The notes below the pieces were generated by a model. That model saw only the letters and a program-made list of their open reading frames with translations. It was not told the origin of the DNA and ran no database searches. A stretch of DNA of 36,143 nt from contig NZ_JRJG01000079.1 of the NCBI RefSeq assembly GCF_000759435.1, forward strand, positions 1 through 36,143, read 5' to 3'. The DNA is from Hoeflea sp. BAL378 (lineage in GTDB: Bacteria > Pseudomonadota > Alphaproteobacteria > Rhizobiales > Rhizobiaceae). Position numbers and translations under genes: made by a program. Numbering within the stretch: position 1 is the first letter of the stretch; each line of letters starts with the position of its first letter. Shown in pieces: positions 1 through 28,626 of this stretch.

Positions 1-420
1 CGGCTCGAGGCCTGGCGCTCGCGTCTCGACCGCCACGCGCTGTCGCTGCAGGCGGTCCCGCGCCGCATCGCCGAGACGCAAACCCGCGGCCGCGACCGGC
101 TGACTGGCCTCGACCGCCGCGCCGACATCGCCCTAACCCAGATGCTGGGCCAGCGCCGCCGCGGGCTCGACGCCCAGGCGCGGATGCTGCAGTCGCTGTC
201 CTATCACTCTGTGCTCGGCCGCGGCTTCGCGGTGATCCGCGACGCGGACCGGACGGTGCTGTCGCGCGTGGCCCAGGTCGACGCCGGCAGCCTGCTCGCC
301 ATCGAATTCGCTGACGGCGAGATCGCGGCGCTGGCGCAAAGCACGGGCCAACCTGTCGCCGCGCAGAAGAAGCCATCCCGGGCCAAGCGCGGCGAACCCG
401 GCCAGGGCAGCCTGTTCTAG
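1..420 (+). CDS. xseA: Exodeoxyribonuclease VII large subunit, C-terminal part (partial)
   Basis: The reading frame is open from the first base and ends at TAG 418-420, giving 139 residues of the C-terminus. It has the arginine/leucine-rich helical region that forms the long coiled coil of XseA. After it comes the conserved tail 'LSYHSVLGRGFAVIRD' (about residues 65-80), a short beta segment and 'EFADGEIAAL'; this order is typical of the large subunit. Exonuclease VII degrades single-stranded DNA in both directions into oligonucleotides and works with the small subunit XseB in repair. The N-terminal OB-fold and catalytic core lie outside the window. The basic tail with 'QKKPSRAKR' ending in 'GQGSLF' is common in alphaproteobacterial XseA. 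Identification by family pattern; confidence high. Confidence 0.9.
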   Translation, partial: RLEAWRSRLDRHALSLQAVPRRIAETQTRGRDRLTGLDRRADIALTQMLGQRRRGLDAQARMLQSLSYHSVLGRGFAVIRDADRTVLSRVAQVDAGSLLAIEFADGEIAALAQSTGQPVAAQKKPSRAKRGEPGQGSLF

Positions 421-495
421 GGCAGCGGCGGCATCAATCCTCGTTCATTCTTTCCGGCCCAGGCTTAACTTGAGTTGTAGCCCCGGCAACGTTTG

Positions 496-510
496 GAACA
501 TATAAGGAAC
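496..510. promoter_or_regulatory. Putative LexA (SOS) box GAAC-N7-GAAC
   Basis: Two GAAC half-sites at 496-499 and 507-510 are separated by exactly seven bases (ATATAAG). Direct repeats GTTC-N7-GTTC, or the reverse complement GAAC-N7-GAAC, are the LexA operator described for alphaproteobacteria. The site overlaps the AAGGA ribosome-binding region and ends two bases before the ATG at 513, with possible -10-like CATATA at 499-504. Bound LexA would therefore block transcription of the repair operon downstream. The motif is seen directly; LexA binding is inference. Confidence 0.65.
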
Positions 511-512
511 AA

Positions 513-1748
513 ATGAGCGGAAAGACACTCGAATCAAAACTGGCGATTCTCAGCGACGCCGCCAAGTACGACGCCTCCTGCGCCTCTTCGGGATCGACGC
601 GACGCGACAGCCGCGACGGCAAGGGGCTGGGGTCGAACGAGGGGACCGGCATCTGCCATGCCTACGCGCCCGACGGGCGCTGCATCAGCCTGCTCAAGAT
701 CCTGATGACCAATTTCTGCATCTATGACTGCGCCTACTGCATCAACCGCGTCTCGTCGAACGTGGCCCGGGCCCGGTTCTCGGTCGACGAGGTTGTTCGC
801 CTGACGATCGATTTCTACCGGCGGAACTATATCGAGGGACTGTTCCTGTCCTCAGGCGTCATCCGGTCGCCGGATGCCACCATGGCCGACATGGTGCGGA
901 TCGCGCGCGATCTGCGCGAGAAGGAGAATTTTCGCGGCTACATCCACCTCAAGACCATCCCCGACGCAGCACCCGAGCTGATCGCCGAGGCGGGACGGCT
1001 GGCCGACAGGCTGTCGATCAATGTCGAGCTGCCGACCGATGCCAGCATGCAGGCCTTTGCCTCGGAAAAGAACCCGGGGCAGATCCGCCGGGCGATGGCG
1101 GACGTGCGGCTGCGCAAGGAAGCCGCCCGGGACGTGACCCACACCGGCCGCAAGGCGCCCCGTTTCGCGCCGGCGGGACAGTCGACCCAGATGATCGTCG
1201 GCGCCGACGGCTCCAACGACGCCGCGATCCTGGGCGAATCCACCCGGCTCTATTCGAGCTACCAGTTAAAAAGGGTCTATTATTCTGCCTTCTCGCCGAT
1301 TCCCGACAGCTCCTCGCGGCTGCCGCTGGTCTCGCCGCCGCTGGTGCGCGAACACAGGCTCTACCAGGCGGACTGGCTCTTGAGGTTCTACGGCTTCGAT
1401 CTCAAGGAGATCGTCAGCACCGCCAGGGACGGAAATCTCGATCTCGAACTCGATCCGAAACTGGCCTGGGCGCTGGCGAACCGGGCGGTGTTCCCGGTCG
1501 ACATCAACCGGGCCGACCGCGAGCTTCTGCTGCGGGTGCCGGGCTTCGGGGTGAAGACGGTCGACCGGATTTTGAGCACCCGCCCCTACCGGACCATCCG
1601 CTACGAAGACGTTGTGCGCATGGGCGGGATGATGAAGAAGGCGGGGCCGTTCGTGACCGCCCAGGGCTGGTCCTCCGGCGGGCTGATCGACACGGCGCGG
1701 CTCAGGAGCCGGTTCCTGCCGCCGCCGGTGCAATTGTCGCTGCTGTGA
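513..1748 (+). CDS. Radical SAM protein with C-terminal helix-hairpin-helix (putative DNA modification/repair)
   Basis: This 411-residue protein carries the radical SAM cluster motif C69-x3-C73-x2-C76 ('CIYDCAYC'), which binds a [4Fe-4S] cluster and cleaves S-adenosylmethionine to a 5'-deoxyadenosyl radical. Near residues 337-354 a helix-hairpin-helix ('LLLRVPGFGVKTVDRI') suggests non-specific DNA binding. The layout matches the family named 'putative DNA modification/repair radical SAM protein', which is almost always encoded beside the UdgX-type protein, as it is here. The start ATG has AAGGA five bases upstream. The stop overlaps the start of the next gene (TGATG), so the two are translationally coupled. 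A GAAC-N7-GAAC box overlaps its ribosome-binding site and suggests SOS control. The chemical reaction is not known; a role on damaged or modified bases is inference. Confidence 0.85.
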   Translation: MSGKTLESKLAILSDAAKYDASCASSGSTRRDSRDGKGLGSNEGTGICHAYAPDGRCISLLKILMTNFCIYDCAYCINRVSSNVARARFSVDEVVRLTIDFYRRNYIEGLFLSSGVIRSPDATMADMVRIARDLREKENFRGYIHLKTIPDAAPELIAEAGRLADRLSINVELPTDASMQAFASEKNPGQIRRAMADVRLRKEAARDVTHTGRKAPRFAPAGQSTQMIVGADGSNDAAILGESTRLYSSYQLKRVYYSAFSPIPDSSSRLPLVSPPLVREHRLYQADWLLRFYGFDLKEIVSTARDGNLDLELDPKLAWALANRAVFPVDINRADRELLLRVPGFGVKTVDRILSTRPYRTIRYEDVVRMGGMMKKAGPFVTAQGWSSGGLIDTARLRSRFLPPPVQLSLL

Positions 1749-3214
1749 TGCGGCACATCGTTATTCCGGATACAGGCACGGCGGCGGCCTGGCGCGAGGC
1801 GGCCCGCGCCTGTCTGATGCAAGGTCTTTCGCCCGCCGACATCGCCTGGGGCAGCGAAAGCAGCGAACGCGGCCTGTTCGAGGACCAGCCCGTTTCCTGC
1901 GCCGCGCCCGTCAGGATGACCGTGCCGCGCAGTTTCGTCGAACTTGCCGAAGCTGTCTGCTGGCATCGCGATGAGGATCGCTTCGCGCGGCTTTATGCAT
2001 TTCTCTGGCGATTGAAGGATGCGCCGCAGCTGATGTCCGACCGCGGCGACAGGGATCTGGCGCATCTGCGCGCCATGGAAAAATCCGTCCGCCGCTGTCA
2101 GCACAAGATGAAGGCCTTCGTCCGTTTCCGCGAAATCGGCAACCGCGACGATCCGCGGCGCAGCTTCGCGGCCTGGTTCGAGCCGACCCATCACACGCTC
2201 GAACCCACGGCGGATTTCTTCGTGCGTCGCTTCGCAGACATGGACTGGCGCATTGCAACACCGGACCTGACCGCGATCTTCGAACAGGGCGCGCTGCGCC
2301 TTGCCCCCGGTCATCCCAAGCCGGCGCTGCCCGATGACAGCAGCGAGGCGCTGTGGCTCACCTATTTCCGCAGCATCTTCAACCCGGCCCGGCTGAAAGT
2401 GCAGGCCATGACCTCGGAGATGCCGAAGAAATACTGGAAGAACCTGCCCGAGGCCGCGACCATTGCCGATCTCATCGCCACCGCCCCGGCCCGCGCCCGG
2501 GCGATGGCCGAGGCGGCGCCGACCCTGCCGCCGATGCGCGCAGAAAAGGCGCGGCTGCAACTCGCCGCGCATGAGTCGGCCTGGAGCGGACCGACAGAGG
2601 CGCTTCCGTCGGCCATTCGCGCCTGCACCCGCTGCCCGCTGCACAGAACGGCGACCCAGGCGGTGCCCGGCGCCGGTCGGCTGGACGCGGATCTGATGAT
2701 CGTCGGCGAACAGCCCGGCGACCAGGAGGATCTGGCCGGGCTCCCCTTCGTCGGTCCGGCCGGGCAATTGTTCGACAGGATCGCCCAGTTAGCGGGACTT
2801 GAAAGGTCGGAGGCGTTCGTCACAAATGCGGTCAAGCATTTCAAGTTCACGCCGCGCGGCAAAAGACGGCTGCACCAGAGGCCCAATTCGGGCGAGATCG
2901 AGCATTGCCGCGGATGGCTGGATGCCGAGCGCAGGCTGGTGCAGCCGAAACTGACCCTCGCCCTCGGCGCCACCGCCGCGGAAGCGCTCACCGGATCGGG
3001 CGCCGGCATCCTCGCCCGGCGCGGCACGGTAGAACAGCTTGCCGACGGCACGCCGGTGCTGGTGGCGGTTCATCCGTCCTATCTGCTGCGCCTGCCCGAT
3101 CCGGTGGAGCGGGAGAGGCAGACCCGTCTGTTTGAAGAGGATCTTCGTCTTGCTGCGGACATGGTCCGGCGGCTGAGAGCTGAGGCCGGTGCGATCCGGG
3201 CTGCTTCGACCTGA
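1745..3214 (+). CDS. udgX: DUF4130-UdgX fusion, uracil-DNA cross-linking glycosylase homologue
   Basis: This is a 489-residue two-part protein. Residues about 1-260 match the DUF4130 'probable DNA metabolism' domain (for example 'RLYAFLWRLK', 'MEKSVRRCQHKMKAFVRFRE', 'MPKKYWKNLPE'). Residues about 285-489 are a UdgX-type uracil-DNA glycosylase domain. It has C294-x2-C297 for the Fe-S cluster, motif 'GEQPGDQED' (321-329), the R-loop 'GKRRLHQRP' with His377, C388, and 'VHPSYLLR' (His443). In Mycobacterium smegmatis UdgX the histidine of KRRIH forms a covalent bond to the uracil-site sugar, so this protein should lock onto uracil in DNA. His365 sits where family 4 enzymes have a third cluster cysteine. 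Either GTG 1745 or ATG 1748 can start; both overlap the upstream stop. The fused arrangement and the radical SAM partner are known as a conserved pair. Confidence 0.9.
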   Translation: MMRHIVIPDTGTAAAWREAARACLMQGLSPADIAWGSESSERGLFEDQPVSCAAPVRMTVPRSFVELAEAVCWHRDEDRFARLYAFLWRLKDAPQLMSDRGDRDLAHLRAMEKSVRRCQHKMKAFVRFREIGNRDDPRRSFAAWFEPTHHTLEPTADFFVRRFADMDWRIATPDLTAIFEQGALRLAPGHPKPALPDDSSEALWLTYFRSIFNPARLKVQAMTSEMPKKYWKNLPEAATIADLIATAPARARAMAEAAPTLPPMRAEKARLQLAAHESAWSGPTEALPSAIRACTRCPLHRTATQAVPGAGRLDADLMIVGEQPGDQEDLAGLPFVGPAGQLFDRIAQLAGLERSEAFVTNAVKHFKFTPRGKRRLHQRPNSGEIEHCRGWLDAERRLVQPKLTLALGATAAEALTGSGAGILARRGTVEQLADGTPVLVAVHPSYLLRLPDPVERERQTRLFEEDLRLAADMVRRLRAEAGAIRAAST

Positions 3215-3274: not shown

Positions 3275-3748
3275 TCACGCGCCAAGCGCGGCAATAATGG
3301 CCTTCATAGCGCGCGCGGCATCGTTGGGATCCAGCCGCAATTGAAGGCCGCGCTGGCCGGCATTGATGAACACGTAGGGTTCCGAAAGCGCCGCCCGTTC
3401 AATGGCGGTAGGGACGGCCTTCTTCTGGCCGAAGGGGCTGATTCCGCCGACATGATAGCCGGTCACGCGTTCGGCTTCGGCCGGCTTCATCATCGCGGCC
3501 GATTTTCCGCCGAGCGCTACGGCCAGCTTCTTCATGCTGACTTCGCGGTCGGAGGGCAGCACGACGCAGACCGGTCTCCCGTCGAGTTCCGCCATCAATG
3601 TCTTGAGCACAAGCGACGGCGGTTCGCCCAGAGCTTCGGCGGCCTGCAAACCAATGCTGTCGGCGTCCGGATCGTATTCGTAGGCATGAACGGAGAAGGC
3701 GATGCCCAAGTTTGCAAGGAACTGGGTGGCGCGGGTTGTCTTCGCCAT
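3275..3748 (-). CDS. ybaK: YbaK/EbsC-type Cys-tRNA deacylase
   Basis: This 157-residue single-domain protein belongs to the YbaK/ProRS-editing fold. It hydrolyses Cys-tRNA(Pro), and in some hosts Cys-tRNA(Cys), as a trans-editing factor in the cytoplasm. Diagnostic parts are 'EPPSLVLKTLMAELDG' with Lys49 at the position of the essential lysine of Haemophilus YbaK, 'PSDREVSMKKLA', and 'GYHVGGISPFGQKK' near residues 97-110 which shapes the pocket. Length matches the family (about 155-160). The ATG at 3748 lies 11 bases after the stop of the upstream ArsC-like gene, so the two form one operon on the minus strand. It converges on udgX, with only 60 bases between the stops. Confidence high for family. 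Confidence 0.9.
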   Translation of the reverse strand: MAKTTRATQFLANLGIAFSVHAYEYDPDADSIGLQAAEALGEPPSLVLKTLMAELDGRPVCVVLPSDREVSMKKLAVALGGKSAAMMKPAEAERVTGYHVGGISPFGQKKAVPTAIERAALSEPYVFINAGQRGLQLRLDPNDAARAMKAIIAALGA

Positions 3749-3759
3749 CTCGGCTCCCC

Positions 3760-4107
3760 TCAGGCGAAGAACCGCTCATAGATGTCCGGCTTGAAGCCGA
3801 TGAGCAGCCGGCCGTCCGCCTCGAGCACCGGGCGCTTGATCATCGAGGGCTGCGCCAGCATCAGCGCGATGGCCTTGCCGGCGTCGAGGTCCTGCTTCTG
3901 AGCGTCATCAAGCTTGCGGAAGGTGGTGCCGGCGCGGTTGAGAACGGTCTCCCAGCCGGCCTCGTCGCACCAGCGCTGAAGATGCGCCCGGTCGATGCCC
4001 GACACCTTGTAGTCGTGGAAGGCCGCGTCGACGCCATGCTCCGCAAGCCAGGCCCGCGCCTTCTTCATCGTGTCGCAGTTCTTGATGCCATAGATGGTGA
4101 CGGTCAT
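3760..4107 (-). CDS. ArsC/YffB-family glutaredoxin-like reductase
   Basis: From the ATG at 4107 this is a 115-residue protein starting 'MTVTIYGIKNCDTMKKA', the usual N-terminus of the YffB/Spx/MgsR branch of the ArsC family. Cys11 (in 'KNCDTMKKA') is the conserved reactive cysteine, and 'MIKRPVLEADGRLLIGF' near residue 88-104 is the family signature with Arg in the anion pocket. A longer frame reaches back to 4161, but the extra 18 residues are arginine/serine-rich and do not look like the fold. YffB-type proteins are thiol reductases of uncertain substrate; arsenate reduction is not supported because there is no ars context. It leads the ybaK gene in a two-gene operon. Confidence 0.85.
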   Translation of the reverse strand: MTVTIYGIKNCDTMKKARAWLAEHGVDAAFHDYKVSGIDRAHLQRWCDEAGWETVLNRAGTTFRKLDDAQKQDLDAGKAIALMLAQPSMIKRPVLEADGRLLIGFKPDIYERFFA

Positions 4108-4237
4108 GTCCGGCCTTTCACTCCTGTCCGACGCACTGCGTCGGTGCCGATGGTTCGGCATAGCAGCCTATCTCCGATCGGAATCGCTTGGAAGCCTCTC
4201 CCGACCCGGTCCCGGACGCGGCTTGCCGTCCCGCCGC

Positions 4238-27302: not shown

Positions 27303-27627
27303 CGTTCCCTCCGCGTTTATTGTTCCGAAAGCCTCCTCAGCCCGGGCGAAAATGCACCGCAAAACGGCGGCGGCGGCTATCGCGGGAGTGCAGAGAAGTG
27401 CGCGCCAGTGCAGAAATCGACGCAAGCGATTGTGTTGGGGGAACCTCTCTCAACCCGTTTCGCCCGATCGGGGGACCGCATTGGAACGCGTGGCGCGCCG
27501 GTCGATTCTTCGCTTGCGGTGCTGCAAGCGCTGCTTATAGTGGCGAGCAAAACGCGGGGTTGGAGCAACGCGGCCGACATCCGACCAGTAAAATGAAGGT
27601 CTTTTGGTCAATCGCGCAGAGGCGCCC
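27303..27627. promoter_or_regulatory. Divergent intergenic region hyuA/araC with phased AGTGC repeats
   Basis: No gene is supported here. The short motif AGTGC occurs three times at exactly 10-base steps (27387, 27397, 27407), the outer two as AGTGCAGA. Direct repeats on one face of the helix are typical of AraC-family binding. TTGCGG at 27514-27519, a 16-base spacer and TATAGT at 27536-27541 form a possible promoter for the AraC gene. The regulator at 27628 is the natural candidate to bind the repeats. Confidence 0.5.
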
Positions 27628-28626
27628 ATGGTCGACTGGAACAGCCATATGTTGTTCGATTCTTCCAACTATGCGTTGGTGAAGAAGGAAACGACACGCG
27701 TTCTGTCTCCGTTCAACCTGCATGTAACCGAGCATGGCCGCAGACTTGCCGCGCGGCTCGATTATGTCCGTCTCGGCGCGATGTCCGCAGTCCGCCTGGC
27801 TTTCGGGGCGGACGTTTCAACCGCTACCGATCCATCCGGCGACTACTATTTCATAACACTGCCGCTGGCGGGAGAATCGTTGCAGGTGATTGGCACCACG
27901 AGGGTTGAGGTAAACCCCGACAGGGGATCGGTCCTCAGTCCCACCTCGCGCCATCGACAGATTGCCGATCGCTCCTTCTCGCAGCTCATCCTGCGATTGA
28001 AGCGGGAGCGCGTCATGCAATTCATGGCCCGGCTGCGGCCGTCCTCCAACACCGCAGAGAAAACGATCGAATTCGACCCTGTGCTCGATCTTCGCGGCTC
28101 GGCCGGCGATTGCTGGCGGCATATCGGCGATCTGCTGACGGGAGGCGGCGCGATCGTCAGCCGTGCGCAACAATACCCGCTGGTTGCCCGGCAGTTGGAA
28201 GAAATGGTGATGGCCGTTCTTTTCACGACACAGGACTGCGGATTGAGCGATGTGTCACGCGATGATGCGGCAACGCCGCTACCGCATTATATCCTCCGTG
28301 CCGAGCGCTACATGGCCGCCAACCTCGCCACGCCGCTGACGATCGAGCAGATCGTCAGCAACGCCGGTGCAAGCCGCAGAACGGTCTTTGAAGGCTTCCG
28401 TCGTTGCCGGGGGGCCACGCCTCTGGAGGTGCTGCGGGATCTGCGGTTGAACCGCATCCGCGATGCGCTACTGCATCCGGATACCCCTGATGCGACCGTG
28501 ACGGATGTGGCATTCGCTTACGGTTTCAGTCACCTCGGTACGTTTTCTGGTCACTATTACCGGAAGTTCGGTGAACTGCCCTCCGCAACGCTCAGGTCAG
28601 GGAAGTCGTCAAGCGTTCAAAGGTGA
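27628..28626 (+). CDS. AraC-family regulator of the hyuAB operon
   Basis: From ATG 27628 this is 332 residues; TTG 27604 in frame is an alternative. The N-terminal half resembles the AraC_binding_2 domain ('YYFITLPLAGESLQVIG', 'GSVLSPTSRHRQI'). The C-terminal helix-turn-helix pair is 'LTIEQIVSNAGASRRTVFEGFRRCRGATPLEVLRDLRLNRIRDAL' (spread over residues about 230-275) and 'TVTDVAFAYGFSHLGTFSGHYYRKFGELP'. It is divergent from hyuA and probably activates the hydantoinase-like operon in the presence of its substrate. AGTGC repeats in the gap are its likely site. Confidence 0.87.
   Translation: MVDWNSHMLFDSSNYALVKKETTRVLSPFNLHVTEHGRRLAARLDYVRLGAMSAVRLAFGADVSTATDPSGDYYFITLPLAGESLQVIGTTRVEVNPDRGSVLSPTSRHRQIADRSFSQLILRLKRERVMQFMARLRPSSNTAEKTIEFDPVLDLRGSAGDCWRHIGDLLTGGGAIVSRAQQYPLVARQLEEMVMAVLFTTQDCGLSDVSRDDAATPLPHYILRAERYMAANLATPLTIEQIVSNAGASRRTVFEGFRRCRGATPLEVLRDLRLNRIRDALLHPDTPDATVTDVAFAYGFSHLGTFSGHYYRKFGELPSATLRSGKSSSVQR

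Follow-up and report, generated by a model that had tools for sequence, protein, structure and literature searches.

Organization of the Locus

The window, that is, the whole stretch of DNA of 36,143 nucleotides analysed here, carries near its left end a predicted two-gene operon preceded by a short repeat. This repeat, GAACATATAAGGAAC, is an exact GAAC-N7-GAAC on the plus strand at positions 496-510, followed by AA and then by the ATG at 513; it is the reverse complement of GTTC-N7-GTTC. The preliminary description had located such a repeat directly before the ATG of a radical SAM gene, and we found it exactly there, ending 2 nt short of 513. The features of the region are as follows.

1..420, plus strand: end of xseA (exonuclease VII large subunit, TIGR00237), the upstream neighbour, outside the operator unit
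478..483, plus strand: putative, weak -35 region TAGCCC, assigned by its position only; the window has no TTG there
496..510, plus strand: predicted LexA operator (SOS box) GAAC-ATATAAG-GAAC, from the sequence and from the exact box in 89/95 and 31/31 orthologues of the class
501..506, plus strand: putative -10 hexamer TATAAG within the operator spacer, by comparison with 46 loci with closely placed boxes
504..508, plus strand: AAGGA, ribosome-site-like by sequence, overlapping the operator, 4 nt before the ATG
513..1748, plus strand: radical SAM protein TIGR03916 (rSAM_link_UDG), 411 aa, with CX3CX2C from residue 69
1745..3214, plus strand: fusion of DUF4130 (TIGR03915) and UdgX (TIGR03914), 489 aa

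The protein encoded at 513-1748 scored 569.6 bits against TIGR03916, whose curated cut-off is 343.5, and its CX3CX2C motif reads CIYDCAYC at residue 69. The GTG start (1745) of the second gene shares bases with the stop codon of the radical SAM gene, and an ATG comes after it at 1748. The product of the second gene reached 320 bits for TIGR03914 (cut-off 189.95) and contains the UdgX motifs GEQPG at 321 and KRRLH at 373, along with HPSYLLR at 443. It is predicted to be a UdgX-type protein, which would bind covalently to uracil sites. Downstream of the radical SAM gene GEQPG was seen in 125 of the 155 loci examined, and the loop His was kept in every one of these 125 (122 by pattern, 3 by eye). 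For the remaining 30 of 155 loci, in which GEQPG was not detected, a short stretch, a variant motif or a missing gene are all possible. We take COG4277 and COG1573 to be the families of the radical SAM and DUF4130-UdgX genes, respectively.

The xseA fragment scored 45.9 bits, under the TIGR00237 cut-off of 180, and this gene runs off the edge of the window. Downstream of the operon, on the opposite strand at 3275-4161, there are genes for a Cys-tRNA(Pro) deacylase (ybaK kind) and an ArsC-family reductase.

Conservation of the Box within the Class

Orthologues of the radical SAM gene were collected at two levels. In the survey of the order, TIGR03916 was above the cut-off in 97 of 397 genomes and 95 loci were examined (G312 and G375, where the matches were split in two, were left out). 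An exact GAAC-N7-GAAC or GTTC-N7-GTTC was present between -400 and +60 of the start in 89/95 of them, and within 60 nt upstream to 15 nt inside the start in 79/95. The corresponding controls gave 6/848 for control windows of the same loci, 24/1900 for dinucleotide shuffles and 3/95 for the backward pattern. In the sample of the phylum, 84 of 398 genomes passed the cut-off at 62 places not already in the set, and 60 further loci were examined (G701 and G707 being left out). Here the loci of the same class but of other orders had the exact box in 31 cases out of 31, with 2/310 in control windows.

Across the class, 120 of the 126 loci examined thus have the exact box. None of the 23 families represented lacks it entirely; at the level of genera, it occurs in every member for 49 of 53 and in none for two. 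Lack of conservation upstream of orthologues had been named beforehand as the result that would refute a LexA box, and what we observed was conservation. The class of the 126 loci is probably Alphaproteobacteria, judging by the type of box and by 80% matches to named plasmid records.

The six loci without an exact box all belong to the order set (L058, L074, L078, L083, L104, and L118). Boxes with one mismatch were found in all six, ending no more than 42 nt from the start in five and lying at -66 in L058; these one-mismatch matches carry little weight. In all six of these genomes the lexA gene itself has an exact box.

Boxes of SOS Genes and of Other Classes

The genome has one lexA gene above the cut-off, and GAACACATATGGAAC lies 65 nt upstream of its likely ATG. 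The recA box, GAACAAATAGGGTAC, has one mismatch. A narrower form of the repeat, GAACAWN5GAAC (A, then A or T at the first two spacer positions), occurs 14 times genome-wide versus 6 times for the backward pattern. Apart from the site under study there are 13 such sites, and the neighbours of nine were scanned with Pfam (L033, L034, L036, and L040 were left out). Among sites of this form, GAACAAATAAAGAAC precedes ssb and GAACATAACAGGAAC precedes an imuA-like gene, which scored 41 bits, under the family cut-off of 150. The comparison with recA and imuA boxes that had been proposed earlier is therefore borne out for the imuA-like gene, as well as for lexA and ssb, with boxes of the same kind, and for recA with the one mismatch. 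The other scanned sites adjoin DsbB, glyoxalase-like, weakly glycosyl-transferase-like, MazE-like or unassigned genes, a mixture that chance could produce as well.

Two of the sites in this genome may be recorded separately. An AlkZ-like DNA glycosylase gene (PF06224) has GAACAAAGCGCGAAC 17 nt upstream of its ATG (L039:1501-1515 = C110:6992-7006) and, judged by this site, is a possible further SOS gene of the genome. The minus-strand box GAACATGTCAAGAAC is found 44 nt before a small gene of a MazE-type antitoxin (L037:1501-1515 = C76:31334-31348).

Outside the class the picture changes with the lineage. In beta- and gammaproteobacteria LexA recognizes CTGT-N8-ACAG. In other classes of the phylum this motif was present in 19 of 29 loci (control windows 4/293), and with one mismatch in 5 more of the 29 (14/757 one-mismatch control windows of 100 bp), while the exact box of the alpha type was found at 0/29 of these orthologues. 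The box thus goes with the lineage, and the radical SAM gene mostly carries the LexA box of its own lineage. Upstream of lexA, CTGT-N8-ACAG was exact in 2 of the 3 genomes of this kind examined.

At five of the 29 other-class loci (L140, L160, and L161-L163) CTGT-N8-ACAG was absent from -80 to +20 even with one mismatch. The L140 genome, whose nearest named loci are from Psychrobacter, has only a partial match to the C-terminal part of LexA (positions 83-202), and the LexA match of the L160 genome is under the cut-off. The lexA genes of L161-L163 have TTAGTAGTAATACTACTAA upstream, and this TTAG-N6-TACTA form was not found upstream of their radical SAM genes. A palindrome-like stretch does lie there (GGTCTCATCCAATGAGACC in L162), which is not their lexA box. 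A LexA link at all orthologues was rejected on account of these five loci and the other kind of lexA box in L161-L163; as the sequences stand, SOS control of the operon is common, not universal.

A scan of named genomes kept 80 of at least 588 loci, mostly from Bacteroidota. Of these 80, 20 had CTAA-N5-TTAG between -300 and +20 (control windows 6/855), which fits the published Bacteroidetes motif. The alpha-type pattern matched in 4 of the same 80 of at least 588 (control 6/855), three of the four being from Chryseobacterium. In these (L204-L206) GAAC-N7-GAAC lies 52-63 nt upstream of the start of the radical SAM gene, and the LexA motif published for the phylum differs from it. At all six loci from Psychrobacter, Moraxella and Acinetobacter (L200-L203, L241, and L242) none of five box patterns was present.

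If the repeat is conserved, then it may be asked whether it could be the operator of another repressor or a part of the core promoter rather than the site of LexA. The spacer resembles a -10 element in many loci, and conservation could come partly from a promoter. However, two GAAC halves at a fixed spacing are no promoter element, and boxes of the same kind stand at lexA, ssb, the imuA-like gene and, with the one mismatch, recA of this genome, as well as at lexA in all six genomes of the class examined. Furthermore, orthologues of other classes carry CTGT-N8-ACAG, which was also exact at lexA in two of the three such genomes examined. We therefore reject another regulator as the reader of this box and consider such an explanation very improbable.

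Origin of the Radical SAM Gene

For the phylogenetic tree, 67 of the 155 loci were chosen manually so that the families were covered, and their radical SAM proteins were used. The protein of the window joins two rows from family f60 (100/98 support) within a group of 13 rows to which all ten f60 rows belong (99/92); the nine rows of f1, its own family, lie elsewhere. Its match to L145 is 82%. The closest plasmid records, at about 80%, come from Sulfitobacter, Leisingera, and Paracoccus, by which f60 is probably Rhodobacteraceae. This topology suggests that the radical SAM gene was probably acquired horizontally within the class, from another family. The f60 loci L147 and L145 likewise carry boxes 2 nt upstream of the ATG, and so it seems likely that the box came together with the gene. 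In the plasmid collection, a relative of the radical SAM protein is encoded on 158 records, of which 58 are from Phaeobacter and 142 are predicted to be non-mobilizable.

An imported operon could bring along a true LexA site that has no effect in its new genome, and the nesting of the radical SAM gene in another family makes import itself probable. But both halves of the box are intact, its spacer fits the consensus, and the SOS boxes of the genome are of the same kind, so that the LexA of this genome should be able to read 496-510. An inert import is, in our estimation, very improbable.

Frequency of the Repeat in the Window and in the Genome

The window contains two exact boxes versus 0.97 expected, and two or more were counted in 23 of 100 shuffles; taken by itself, the box in the window is not above chance. 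The whole genome has 118 exact matches (66+52), compared with 90 (44+46) for the backward pattern. The second exact GAAC-N7-GAAC of the window, on the minus strand at 27700-27714 within an AraC-type regulator gene (27604-28626), is probably a chance match. The significance of the box at 496-510 comes from its conservation at orthologues, where it recurs near the start far above the control windows in both sets, and by this conservation a chance repeat with no operator function is rejected.

The earlier reading of 496-510 as a LexA box consequently gains support, at the level of sequence comparison, from the orthologues and from the SOS boxes of the same genome. Very probably it serves LexA as the operator for an SOS operon of two genes, the first encoding the radical SAM protein and the second the DUF4130-UdgX fusion.

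Position of the Box Relative to the Start Codon

In the 120 loci of the class with an exact box, the nearest box was in the GAAC orientation in 100 and in the GTTC orientation in 20. Geometry could be described for 111 of the 126 loci, leaving out six without an exact box and nine without an in-frame ATG or GTG within 120 nt after the box; the start codons were assigned by script. The 111 comprise 46 "tight" loci, where the start codon follows the GAAC box by 1-4 nt, 43 looser loci of the same orientation, 20 in the GTTC orientation and two at distance 0. The tight loci come from 9 families and 22 genera, and in 30 loci, as in the window, the distance is exactly 2 nt.

At spacer positions 5-10 the commonest bases of the 46 tight loci read TATAAT (T37 A43 T22 A25 A27 T22). 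T at spacer position 5 was present in 37/46 tight versus 15/43 looser loci (p = 1.5e-5), and counted by genus, which removes relatedness only partly, in 20/22 versus 7/22 (p = 1.2e-4). Of the 46 tight loci, 11 have a TTG that begins 18 nt upstream of the box, versus a mean of 1.27 per offset, with 17-bp spacing to the TATAAT-like hexamer. A ribosome-site match of at least 4 bases was found in 5/46 tight and 15/43 looser loci, a difference which by genus (1/22 versus 6/22, p = 0.09) was not significant.

These features suggest for the tight loci a leaderless start with the -10 element inside the operator, and at this finer level we infer that the spacer of the operator may double as the -10 element of the promoter. 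It is conceivable, with somewhat less than an even chance, that in a large group of these bacteria operator, promoter and start codon form one composite, with -10 in the spacer, -35 17 bp upstream and leaderless transcription from the ATG. There LexA would hide the -10 element together with the transcription start and the start codon, and the unit would move between families together with its switch. If so, this operon, whose product bonds proteins covalently to DNA, would have a very tight off-state. In the papers searched, beyond which others may exist, we found no leaderless or -10-nested LexA box described for this operon.

In the window itself the AAGGA at 504-508 speaks against a leaderless start for this member. 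A consensus promoter scan of the window found no -35/-10 pair, and a classical promoter was rejected on this ground; the scan demands a final T in the -10 hexamer, which TATAAG does not have.

Proposed Function and Relation to Known Systems

The sequences show the letters, position and conservation of the box, the LexA of the genome with its further boxes, the order of the two genes, their families and their catalytic motifs. Binding, repression, induction, chemistry, and co-transcription of the operon we infer in the following form. LexA bound at 496-510 would occupy the stretch directly ahead of the start codon, thereby keeping the operon off. After DNA damage, RecA filaments would lead to self-cleavage of LexA and both proteins would be made together, their translation probably being coupled through the gene overlap. 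UdgX would then bond covalently to uracil sites in DNA, and the resulting lesion may need RecA, raised by the same response. For the radical SAM and DUF4130 parts, the probable substrates are the same damaged or modified bases. What UdgX does physiologically is said to be largely unknown (PMC10359453). The same source names RecA-dependent pathways or proteases as possible means of resolving UdgX-DNA complexes; in that case it would make sense for the operon to be induced along with RecA. Boxes in 120/126 loci of the class and in 19/29 loci of other classes may indicate that the pair is wanted on DNA damage and otherwise kept off. SOS induction could also serve as a simple handle for seeking UdgX-DNA bonds and the substrate of the radical SAM protein.

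The preliminary description had proposed a damage-response role for the pair. SOS control is supported by our data; the novelty was overstated, because PMC8565304 already puts the link in print. That paper gives evidence of SOS regulation for a two-gene COG1573-COG4277 operon in Bacteroidetes and, citing Erill 2016 and da Rocha 2008, states that such regulation of this uracil-DNA-glycosylase system was reported in Verrucomicrobia and Alphaproteobacteria. The same kind of gene pair stands under a predicted LexA box here, but in our case its source was probably another family of the class. DUF4130, SplB-like radical SAM proteins and uracil-DNA glycosylases have also been linked with SOS genes, with a predicted role related to mutagenesis (PMC3765255); the gene association is the same as ours and that study, in the part of it consulted, is gene-context work with no analysis of operators. 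SOS control of this gene pair has therefore been reported already and is not new in kind. Relative to the papers searched, the present analysis adds breadth, boxes that follow the lineage within the phylum and the start-codon geometry in 46 loci; it further adds that the radical SAM gene was probably acquired by horizontal transfer within the class.

Compared with the operator GTTC-N7-GTTC of alphaproteobacterial LexA (PMC8565304, PMC3323433, PMC12700426), the halves and spacing at 496-510 are the same, and boxes of this kind recur at lexA, ssb and the imuA-like gene here. The difference lies in its position on the gene start, 2 nt before the ATG, and in its TATA-like spacer. UdgX of Mycobacterium smegmatis has GEQPG, KRRIH and the motif B HPS(S/A)(L/V)(L/V)R (PMC10359453). 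The protein of the window shares with it GEQPG and the KRRxH loop with the bonding His. It differs in being a fusion with DUF4130, in having a radical SAM gene as partner, and at one position of motif B, which reads HPSYLLR.
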